Assembly: GCF_900129245.1 (NCBI RefSeq)
Contig: NZ_FQUT01000006.1
Location: 62,001 to 126,000, forward strand
From: Chryseobacterium arachidis
Lineage (GTDB): Bacteria; Bacteroidota; Bacteroidia; Flavobacteriales; Weeksellaceae
DNA: 64,000 nt
Reading direction: 5' to 3'
Each line of letters starts with the position of its first letter. The stretch's first letter is position 1. The notes under the pieces were generated by a model. That model was not told the DNA's origin, did no database searches, and was given only the letters and a program-made list of their open reading frames with translations. A program made the position numbers and the translations under genes. Below, one piece after another: positions 17,780 through 51,737 of the stretch.

Positions 17780-19060
17780 TTAAATTCCGAAAGAAGCTTT
17801 AATTTCGTCTACTTTGTCTAGTTTTTCCCAAGTAAAGAACTCTAAACCTGTTAAAGTAAGTTCGTTTTTATGTCCTTTATTGAACGTTTTATCAGCCACG
17901 TAATGCTCTCTTCCCATATGTCCGTAAGAAGCTGTATCCTGATAAATTGGGTTTCTCAATTTCAGGTTTTGCTCGATTGCATAAGGTCTAAGATCAAAAA
18001 TTGTAGAAACTTTTTTAGCGATTTCACCATCGTGAAGATCAACTTTAGCCGTTCCGTACGTGTTGATGTATAAACCACAAGGTTCAGCAACACCGATTGC
18101 GTAAGAAACCTGTACCAGAACCTCGTCAGCAACACCTGCAGCAACTAAATTCTTAGCGATGTGTCTTGTTGCATAAGCCGCACTTCTGTCTACTTTTGAA
18201 GGATCTTTTCCAGAGAATGCACCACCACCGTGCGCTCCTTTTCCGCCGTAAGTATCAACGATAATTTTTCTTCCTGTAAGACCTGTATCTCCGTGAGGAC
18301 CACCGATTACGAATTTACCAGTTGGGTTGATGTGATATTTGATCTGATCATTAAATAAAGCCTTGATCTCCTCAGTTTGTAAAGCAACAACTCTTGGAAT
18401 CAAAATATTTTTAATGTCTTCTCTGATTTTGTTTAACATTTCTTCCTCTGATCCGAAATCGTCGTGCTGAGTAGAAACTACAATAGAATCTATTCTGATT
18501 GGTTTGTGATCATCAGAATATTCGATGGTAACCTGAGATTTTGCGTCAGGACGAAGATATTTAATTTCAGAATCTTCTCTTCTGATCGCAGAAAGTTCTT
18601 TAAGAATAGTATGTGCCAAATCCAAAGCCAAAGGCATATAGTTTGCCGTTTCATTCGTTGCATACCCAAACATCATCCCCTGATCTCCGGCTCCCTGCGC
18701 GTTTGCTTTAGCTTCAAAAGACTCATCTGTTACCGCTCTGTCTACACCCTGATTGATATCCGGAGATTGCTCGTGAATGGCTGAAATAACACCACAAGAA
18801 TCACCATTAAACATATATTCTCCTTTTGTATATCCGATTCCGTTGATTACGTCTCTTGCAATCGTCTGTACATCAAGATAAGCATCAGATTTTACTTCAC
18901 CAGCCAAAACAACCTGTCCTGTTGTAACAAGAGTTTCGCAAGCTACTTTTGAAGATTTATCATATGCTAAAAAGTGGTCGATTAATGCATCGGAAATCTG
19001 ATCGGCAATTTTATCCGGATGTCCTTCTGAAACTGATTCAGATGTAAATAAATAAGACAT
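17780..19060 (-). CDS. metK: S-adenosylmethionine synthetase
   Basis: MetK makes S-adenosylmethionine from methionine and ATP in the cytoplasm. Visible signatures are [20 protein letters not shown] at residues 8-27, [12 protein letters not shown] near 122-133 (methionine/ATP loop), [13 protein letters not shown] near 255 and the P-loop-like [19 protein letters not shown] near 278. At 426 residues it is somewhat longer than the E. coli enzyme (384). Expression is probably controlled by the SAM-II-like leader at 19141-19195, that is, by its own product. Transcribed alone. Confidence 0.97.
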
Positions 19061-19140
19061 ATTATTCTCTTTGTTTTTTTAGATTAAAAAATTCACGAAG
19101 AAAAGTAAGAATAAATTGCCAGAATGTCTAAAAAAAGTAA

Positions 19141-19195
19141 TACTGTTTTAGCATTTTTTTATAGAGGTTGCAATCAGGTCAAATTTTTCCTCGTT
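19141..19195 (-). promoter_or_regulatory. SAM-II-like riboswitch in the metK leader
   Basis: On the minus strand the leader reads CGAGG, an A/T loop with TTTGACCTGATTGCAA, CCTC, an A-rich bridge, then GCTAAAACAG. This follows the compact SAM-II pseudoknot: P1 is GAGG (19192-19189) with CCTC (19167-19164); the conserved TTGCAA precedes the right arm of P1; the conserved GCTAAA is at 19152-19147; the pseudoknot helix would be loop CTG (19177-19175) with CAG (19145-19143). SAM-II is known to bind S-adenosylmethionine and to control methionine genes in alphaproteobacteria and Bacteroidota. The position, just after a good promoter and before metK, fits. Assignment is by eye. Confidence 0.75.
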
Positions 19196-19207
19196 CGTAA
19201 ACGTTGG

Positions 19208-19239
19208 CAAATTTAAGTACTATTTTGCGAATACTCAAA
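19208..19239 (-). promoter_or_regulatory. metK promoter
   Basis: On the minus strand TTTG (19239-19236), a 20-bp spacer and TAAATTTG (19215-19208) match the Bacteroidota housekeeping promoter. The implied transcription start, near 19202, is only a few bases before the riboswitch-like aptamer. Confidence 0.75.
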
Positions 19240-19301
19240 ATTTTTGTTTACTAATTATAATTTTCTTTAAGTTAATGATCTGTCAAGCTTTAACAATAAA
19301 A

Positions 19302-20252
19302 CTATTGTGGTTTTATGCTTACGAATTCTTTCGGATTTTCATGATAATGAAGTTTGTTCTCTAACGAAGTTCTGATAGAATGCGATAATTCGTCAATAAT
19401 TTTCTGTTTAAACGTTGGCTTATAGTAAATTATACTGATCTCTCTGTAAGGAAAAGGCTTTTTGAATCTGAAAACATTGTCCTTTTGCACATCAGAAAGT
19501 TGGTTTAAGGCTAATTCAGGTAAAATACTGATTCCACCTACTTTATCTACCATGTGGACCAAAGTCTGGATATTGGAAGCCAGGAAATCCAAATTCTTAG
19601 GCTTCAAAGTATTTTCCTTTAAATGACAGATATTTTCAAATTGATTTCTCAAACAGTTTCCTTCTTCAAGCAGCCAAACTTTTTCTACATTCAGATCTTC
19701 AGGAACAACATAAGAGTTCTTTTTATTGGTCTCTGTATTCGAACTGTAGATCATTAATTCTTCATTAAATAAGAAGTCCTGATAAAACTCGTCTGCCGCA
19801 TCATAAGGCGTAGAAATAATTCCGGCATCCAATTCTCCGGCTTTCAAAGCCTTGATGATATTGTCCGTTGTCATTTCCTTCACATTCATCTGAATTTTCG
19901 GATTATCTTCCAAAAATTTGAAAATTTCAGTCGGCAAAATAAAAGAAGAAACCGTTGGAATTATTCCTAAGTTAATTGTCCCTCCCAAAATATTATTCAA
20001 AAGATTGGCCTTATTCTTCAGTTCATTGACAGACTCTATGATAACCTTCGCCTGATCGATGATCTGAAGTCCTACATCTGTGGTACGTATCGGGTGCGTT
20101 GTTCTATCGAAGACTTTCACATCCAGTTCGTCCTCAAATTTCTGTATCATTGCACTTAACGTAGGTTGCGTAATGAAGCACGCTTGCGCTGCCTTACCAA
20201 AATGTTTGTACTTATCTACAGCGATAAGATACTCCAGTTGCTGAATGTTCAT
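19302..20252 (-). CDS. oxyR: OxyR-type LysR transcriptional regulator
   Basis: N-terminal LysR helix-turn-helix (FGKAAQACFITQPTLSAMIQ, residues 18-37) and a C-terminal effector domain. The region WLLEEGNCLRNQFENICH carries Cys200 and Cys209, the same spacing and nearly the same numbering as the redox pair Cys199/Cys208 of E. coli OxyR, so peroxide sensing by a disulfide is expected. It is divergent from the catalase gene, 132 bases apart, which supports the role as peroxide-responsive activator. Start chosen by homology to MNIQQLEYL. Confidence 0.93.
   Translation of the reverse strand: MNIQQLEYLIAVDKYKHFGKAAQACFITQPTLSAMIQKFEDELDVKVFDRTTHPIRTTDVGLQIIDQAKVIIESVNELKNKANLLNNILGGTINLGIIPTVSSFILPTEIFKFLEDNPKIQMNVKEMTTDNIIKALKAGELDAGIISTPYDAADEFYQDFLFNEELMIYSSNTETNKKNSYVVPEDLNVEKVWLLEEGNCLRNQFENICHLKENTLKPKNLDFLASNIQTLVHMVDKVGGISILPELALNQLSDVQKDNVFRFKKPFPYREISIIYYKPTFKQKIIDELSHSIRTSLENKLHYHENPKEFVSIKPQ

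Positions 20253-49357: not shown

Positions 49358-51737
<2,380 letters not shown>

Follow-up and report, generated by a model that had tools for sequence, protein, structure and literature searches.

A SAM-II (long loop) riboswitch upstream of metK in Flavobacteriales and a candidate strand-exchange output around a start codon without a Shine-Dalgarno sequence

The DNA analyzed here, a 64 kb stretch of the Chryseobacterium arachidis genome (the window, for short), carries on its minus strand a metK gene that is preceded, in the order of transcription, by promoter-like elements, a riboswitch aptamer and a leader segment (Table 1). The predicted metK product shows an equivalog-level match to TIGR01034 (506.1 bits), which places the aptamer upstream of a SAM/methionine gene. 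The metK ATG at 19060 lies 82 bases from the CAG of the proposed pseudoknot and 77 bases from the end of the covariance match, in agreement with the distance of about 80 bases between aptamer and start codon given in an earlier note on this locus. The bases immediately 5' of the ATG, AAAGAGAATAAT, contain no GGAGG-like site, and there is no Shine-Dalgarno sequence within the pseudoknot of this leader. In the vicinity, the segment 19302-21872 holds a gene for an OxyR-like LysR regulator (NF008361, 207.5 bits, below the cut-off of 329), with its end about 100 bases from the aptamer; a catalase-like gene (NF008422, 452.3 bits, below the cut-off of 1102) is oriented divergently to it. Elsewhere in the window, a TPP riboswitch (RF00059, 52015-52115, minus strand, 68.1 bits with a cut-off of 54.3) is located about 290 bases 5' of a gene for a 603-aa protein (49914-51725) that resembles thiC by eye.

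Table 1. Features of the metK locus, in window coordinates
Feature	Position	Strand	Basis
TTTG, -33-like promoter element	19236..19239	-	position; role from Bacteroidetes promoter consensus
TAAATTTG, -7-like promoter element (TAnnTTTG)	19208..19215	-	position; conserved across leaders
SAM-II (long loop) aptamer	19138..19198	-	RF01726 covariance match
P1 5' arm GAGG	19189..19192	-	position; co-varies with 3' arm
CTG, 5' strand of proposed pseudoknot P2b	19175..19177	-	position and RF01726 alignment
P1 3' arm CCTC	19164..19167	-	position; co-varies with 5' arm
A-rich bridge	19153..19163	-	read from sequence
GCTAAAACAG, conserved core (GCTAAA from 19152) and pseudoknot 3' strand CAG (19145-19143)	19143..19152	-	
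Anti-aptamer strand GGCAATTTATTCTTACTTTTCTTCG	19096..19120	-	complementary to aptamer 5' half (19194-19170 in full fold)
Start-covering strand, inside anti-aptamer strand	19107..19120	-	duplex of -11.4 kcal/mol with start region
Start region GAGAATAATATGTC (-9 to +5)	19056..19069	-	partner of start-covering strand
metK, methionine adenosyltransferase, 426 aa	17780..19060	-	TIGR01034, 506.1 bits, cut-off 309.4

Identification of the metK leader element as a SAM-II aptamer is supported by its covariance match to RF01726 (Rfam SAM-II long loop), which scores 68.2 bits (E 4.8e-11 in the whole 64 kb window), above the curated gathering cut-off of 44 bits, and covers the model from end to end (positions 1-60 of 60); the genome of origin contains a single RF01726 copy at E up to 0.001. 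The earlier note had proposed a SAM-II-like riboswitch before metK within 19141-19239, a span that starts at the promoter and stops just short of the 3' end of the aptamer, and the elements it listed are all present on the minus strand in the SAM-II order, namely, P1, TTGCAA immediately 5' of the right P1 arm, the A-rich bridge, GCTAAA, and CTG/CAG. The covariance check that it had suggested yielded a strong SAM-II match, while the model it named for this purpose, RF00521, did not match. This model of the alpha-proteobacterial SAM-II gave no match in a 601-base scan (18900-19500, E up to 10), nor in the genome of origin, where the absence weighs little because the control genomes gave no match either; by the missing match, RF00521 was ruled out as the family model, and RF01726 is the one that fits. 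We take the element to be a SAM-II (long loop) riboswitch of metK that would bind SAM. As a member of this already known family, the aptamer is ordinary, and it is the output that may be new.

The homologous leaders bear out the conservation of P1. Among 220 parsed leaders, 185 have GAGG/CCTC and 33 have GTGG/CCAC in this helix, divided by family, a compensatory change that preserves P1; in the remaining two (L056 and L244), the parser picked an earlier GNGG. The fifth, outermost pair is often non-standard in these leaders. The CTG/CAG pseudoknot pairing is present and near-invariant in the aligned rows and hence carries little covariation information, so that covariation neither supports nor refutes it.

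The promoter elements TTTG and TAAATTTG, separated by a spacer of 20 bases, conform to what we take to be the Bacteroidetes promoter consensus (TTTG and TAnnTTTG), and the placement of the promoter directly 5' of the aptamer in the earlier note is corroborated by conservation. The TAnnTTTG box occurs within 45 bases 5' of P1 in 109 of 109 leaders of the genus, 46 of 46 leaders from the rest of the family to which the organism belongs (hereinafter f1) and 59 of 65 leaders from other families, the chance rate in mononucleotide shuffles being 2.3-3.5%. A TTG beginning 14-28 bases 5' of the box is found in 105 of 109, 30 of 46 and, among the boxed leaders of other families, 17 of 59. Transcription would begin about 8 bases 5' of P1, in accordance with the earlier note.

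In overlapping samples of genomes searched with the stricter filters of Infernal, RF01726 scored above the cut-off in 148 of 148 genomes of the genus, 234 of 246 of the family, 135 of 196 in the order sample and 35 of 247 in the phylum sample. Of the 12 family genomes lacking a match, nine fall in a single genus (g17). Six metK leaders, four from these nine genomes and two from the remaining three, were read by eye, and no aptamer was visible in them. In these six genomes (L245-L250; g16, g17, g8), the riboswitch has apparently been lost; by eye, the TAnnTTTG box is still found upstream of metK in five of them. Another variation is seen in family f3, where, in 22 of the 27 parsed leaders (e.g., L089-L097, L099-L104 and L238-L240), an insert separates the right P1 arm from the A-rich bridge; this long-loop insert is up to about 55 bases in length and often includes inverted repeats, as judged by eye.

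A second, sub-cut-off RF01726 match is present in nine of the 148 genus genomes, and two of these were inspected. The match in L255 (31.5 bits) was rejected as a chance occurrence; it sits within a coding frame that resembles ffh by eye. The match in L254, another genome of the genus (L254:2028-2083, 36.2 bits), is intergenic, 5' of a gene encoding 954 aa or more, and the core letters are altered (TTGAAACC, GGCAAAACAG); parts of its surroundings (301 bases) are found again in 115 of the 146 genus genomes examined, frequently as only a stretch of about 50 bases upstream of the match. Besides SAM-II, the genome of origin contains three SAM-I riboswitches (RF00162; L251, L252 and L253), with genes for a MetX-like acetyltransferase and two TonB-dependent receptors 3' of them, by eye. 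SAM-I scored above the cut-off in 60 of 60 genus genomes searched, all of which also carry a SAM-II match; Barrick and Breaker (2007; PMC2258182) reported no species with both SAM-I and SAM-II.

For the comparison of the leaders downstream of the aptamer, 163 of 204 loci were parsed in a first round, yielding 159 distinct leaders for shuffling, and 220 of 244 loci later on; the 24 unparsed loci include all fetched loci of f2, f17 and f25, which, like f3 and f7, are families other than f1. In the window, the strand GGCAATTTATTCTTACTTTTCTTCG can form a duplex of -15.4 kcal/mol with the 5' half of the aptamer, and the fold of the full leader pairs 19119-19095 with 19194-19170. Dinucleotide shuffling gave an equally good anti-aptamer pairing no more than 5 times in 100 for 92 of the 105 genus leaders; the same is true of 21 of 36 other leaders of 60 or more bases and of 7 of 18 shorter ones. 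Across the 105 genus leaders, the 21 aptamer-leader pairs of the fold are retained in 86.8% of the cells compared to 42-69% when slid, and the 12 pairs of a second helix, between the leader strand and the start region of metK, in 89.4% compared to 43-55%; both helices were derived from the window sequence, which biases these figures in their favor. Four pairs of the L001 fold between the aptamer 3' part and the leader are poorly retained (11 to 52 of the 105).

A swap test, in which the partners were permuted among genera and the energies of own and swapped pairings compared, was run on 219 leaders of 40 or more bases; an earlier version used 30 chosen f1 leaders from 13 genera (one for g1). 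Within f1, the anti-aptamer pairing with the own partner averaged -16.10 kcal/mol vs -14.27 with swapped partners, 0 of 500 permutations being as good and the own partner being better in 18 of 18 genera; here and below, the genera are non-independent, so that the permutation counts are not strict probabilities. The corresponding counts are 4/500 for the long f1 leaders alone and 98/500 for the short ones alone. Outside f1, in a set that was mostly but not wholly held out (the shuffle analysis had already included seven of its 65 leaders, five of these had been folded, and further sequences had been read before the swap test), the energies are -16.57 vs -13.78 kcal/mol, with 0/500 and the own partner better in 31 of 37 genera; f3 alone gives 1/500, and permutation by family 2/500. 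Matched changes in the two strands are found, for instance, in L234 (aptamer CTGCTTGC, leader GCAAGCAG), L064 (GATTTGGC and GCCAAATC) and, with one G-U pair, L076 (TGTCTGAT and ATCGGACA). In leaders as short as about 38-53 bases (L043, L046, L177, L196 and similar ones; g21, g28, g10), a pyrimidine-rich strand can pair with the aptamer, and there is no covering of the start.

The 5' part of the same strand can pair, as UGGCAAUUUAUUCUUA with AGAGAAUAAUAUGUCU, with the metK start region. For this pairing, no more than 5 of 100 shuffles equaled the real leader in 62 of the 105 leaders of the genus; of the other leaders, 16 of 36 long and 1 of 18 short ones reached this level. Leaders of the same genus show largely conserved helices and few two-sided changes; between genera, the partners of the start pairing change together, as in CAAAAGAAA/TTTCTTTTG (L198), AAAACACACA/TGTGTGTTTT (L034), AAAAGGAA/TTCCTTTT (L193) and AAACTTAA/TTAAGTTT (L032). 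In the 13 f1 genera with leaders of 60 or more bases, none of 500 permutations reached the own pairing, which was better in 13 of 13 genera, and a separate test gave 0/300, with the qualification that the idea of a strand with two partners was developed and tested on one and the same f1 set. Outside f1, the count is 0/500, with the own partner better in only 23 of 37 genera; when f3 is also excluded, it is 0/500 and 20 of 26 genera. In f3, the start pairing does not exceed that of swapped partners (191/500; own better in 4 of 11 genera), and in f1 leaders shorter than 60 bases it is not supported by the swap (69/500); permutation by family gives 19/500. When the coding bases after the ATG are omitted, the counts are 0/500 for the long f1 leaders, 10/500 outside f1 (own better in 19 of 37 genera) and 64/500 for f7. 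Comparison of the sequences indicates that, within f1, the two predicted alternative pairings both covary across genera, the start pairing in the leaders of 60 or more bases.

The gap between own and swapped energies ranges from -1.43 to -2.94 kcal/mol in the real leaders, compared to means of -0.03 to -0.52 in shuffled sets, one of 15 of which nearly equals the real anti-aptamer gap in the long f1 leaders (-1.59 vs -1.62). Reversed leaders show gaps of -0.14 to -0.94, except for the start pairing of f7, with -2.08 vs -2.45 in the real leaders; because this control nearly equals the real gap, we do not count the f7 start pairing as strong. In folds computed with programs that handle neither the pseudoknot nor SAM, masking of the aptamer increases the pairing of the start region in 47 of 55 genera, and the increase exceeds that in the own shuffled leaders in 46 of 55 (at most three leaders per genus; Wilcoxon p 2.9e-8, with the genera non-independent), that is, in 16 of 18 genera of f1, 8 of 11 of f3 (p 0.067) and 22 of 26 of the rest. 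In the aptamer-masked fold of f1, the start region is paired hardly above shuffles (0.526 vs 0.516; 11 of 18 genera), and the contrast in this family stems, in the folding, from a more open full-length state rather than from extra pairing in the masked state. Overlap of the two leader strands is no greater than in shuffles (0.57 vs 0.53 in f1; 0.65 vs 0.65 outside f1 and f3) and was dropped as evidence of exclusivity. Two other pairings were also discarded: a hairpin between the GCTAAA core and a UUUAGC further downstream, present in some leaders of the genus, is not supported by covariation (197/500 in f1; 9/500 in all genera, but with the own partner better in only 25 of 55), and the initial candidate for start pairing, U7AGA (19136-19127) with TCTAAAAAAA (19083-19074), was not the best pairing once the leader was folded.

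Taken as a whole, the comparison suggests that the metK riboswitch probably works as a translational OFF switch through strand exchange around the AUG. Strand-exchange platforms are well known in other riboswitches, and the order of the elements in the transcript, from the aptamer to the strand to the start, is compatible with such a mechanism. The strand at 19120-19096 would have two partners, the 5' half of the aptamer or, via its own 5' part, the AUG region. At low SAM, the strand would invade the aptamer (GCAATT with GATTGC of the aptamer, and the TTTTCTTCGT end with ACGAGGAAAA), leaving the AUG region open; when SAM is present, the pseudoknot would hold, and the freed strand would pair with positions -9 to +5 of metK, so that initiation would be blocked and SAM would repress its own synthetase. 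We infer SAM binding, the direction of the switch and its translational level. Control of this kind would involve no Shine-Dalgarno sequence. Bacteroidia initiate translation independently of such sequences (PMC6847099) and do not use Shine-Dalgarno pairing (PMC9976891), and in Flavobacterium johnsoniae, the mRNAs of which lack them, translation is described as tuned by the structure of the start region together with adenines at -3, -6, -12 and -13 (PMC6847099), which makes covering of the metK start a plausible block. The broader proposition, namely, that the SAM-II riboswitches of Flavobacteriales possess a conserved output module in which a strand invades the aptamer 5' half without SAM and, once released by SAM, covers a start devoid of a Shine-Dalgarno sequence, seems to us to have about an even chance, or marginally better, of being correct.

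Among the other explanations, the one closest to the proposed switch is a related strand exchange in which the anti-aptamer strand is real, the block is effected via mRNA decay, a ribosome standby site, Rho access or a protein such as S1, and the start helix is a side effect. The wider support for the anti-aptamer pairing than for the start pairing, as seen in f3 (1/500 vs 191/500), fits this possibility, which we nevertheless hold to be unlikely given the covariation of the start helix in the long f1 leaders (0/500 with 13 of 13 genera, and 0/300). Termination of transcription by the SAM-bound aptamer, either by the pseudoknot together with the run of seven U's close behind it (19136-19130) or by a downstream terminator hairpin that becomes free, has a precedent in that many alpha-proteobacterial SAM-II aptamers are described as standing before putative terminators (PMC1273637) and terminators are common in proteobacterial SAM-II (PMC1273637; PMC2258182). 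However, no terminator-like sites were found in 18950-19320 (0.1 expected), an unbroken U run is missing at this place in many leaders of other genera (by eye, uncounted), and covariation of the start region would have no role in a terminator; we regard termination as slightly less probable still than the related exchange.

The textbook SAM-II mechanism, in which the folded aptamer itself blocks the ribosome and there is no downstream switch, appears the least likely. A review does class SAM-II as direct occlusion (PMC10907184), and some f1 genera have shorter leaders, of 35-59 bases, that would suit it, but the 82 bases from CAG to ATG, the lack of a GGAGG-like site before the ATG, and the fact that Shine-Dalgarno pairing is not used by Bacteroidia (PMC6847099, PMC9976891) all speak against direct occlusion, which would also leave a covarying anti-aptamer strand without a purpose. 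The suspicion voiced in the earlier note, that the output could be unusual, gains support from the strand with two partners and its covariation across genera: judging by the sequences, the output seems to differ from the usual translation-blocking design, but not in all clades.

SAM-II is usually presented as direct occlusion of the Shine-Dalgarno sequence, yet it occurs in bacteria without Shine-Dalgarno pairing. If correct, translational strand exchange around the metK AUG would represent a SAM-II output distinct from both direct occlusion and terminators, and would exemplify riboswitch action on the A-rich, Kozak-like start itself. The comparison pinpoints the strands to mutate, which opens riboswitch control of translation without a Shine-Dalgarno sequence to direct testing in a tractable flavobacterium. 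In a search of the open-access literature, we found no account of such an output for Bacteroidetes SAM-II, and neither SAM-II nor metK occurs in the main text of the Flavobacterium psychrophilum transcriptome paper (PMC9723704) or of the Bacteroides thetaiotaomicron map (PMC7366714).

The aptamer itself has been described before. Occurrences of SAM-II in the Bacteroides group were noted by Corbino et al. (2005; PMC1273637), and a table in Weinberg et al. (2010; PMC2864571) lists SAM-II long loops, RF01726, for Bacteroidetes and marine sequences, with the row entries Y, Y, Y; this is the same aptamer as in the metK leader, with no difference between the two, and both are from Bacteroidetes. The alpha-proteobacterial SAM-II (RF00521, PMC1273637) likewise has P1 and the pseudoknot, a promoter few bases 5' of P1 and a presumed OFF mode, but is often followed by a putative terminator, whereas none was found in the metK leader, for which a start-covering strand is proposed. 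In the tandem SAM-II riboswitches with terminator and translational platforms (PMC9481103; "Bacteroid" occurs 0 times in that text), the expression platforms of some copies are mixed, the first aptamer being followed by a terminator, in contrast to the single aptamer without a detected terminator seen here. The metX SAM-II from the Sargasso Sea metagenome (PMC10907184) shares the ligand class and the pseudoknot plan with the metK element; in metX, the Shine-Dalgarno sequence lies inside the pseudoknot, whereas the metK leader has none, its ATG is 82 bases away, and a distinct strand would have two partners. The metA SAM-II of Sinorhizobium meliloti (Scheuer et al. 2022, PMC9373788) also acts at a distance, controlling a start codon 74 nt downstream; there, a Shine-Dalgarno sequence within the riboswitch is required and sequestered, whereas in metK, it is the start region itself that would pair with a strand of the leader.
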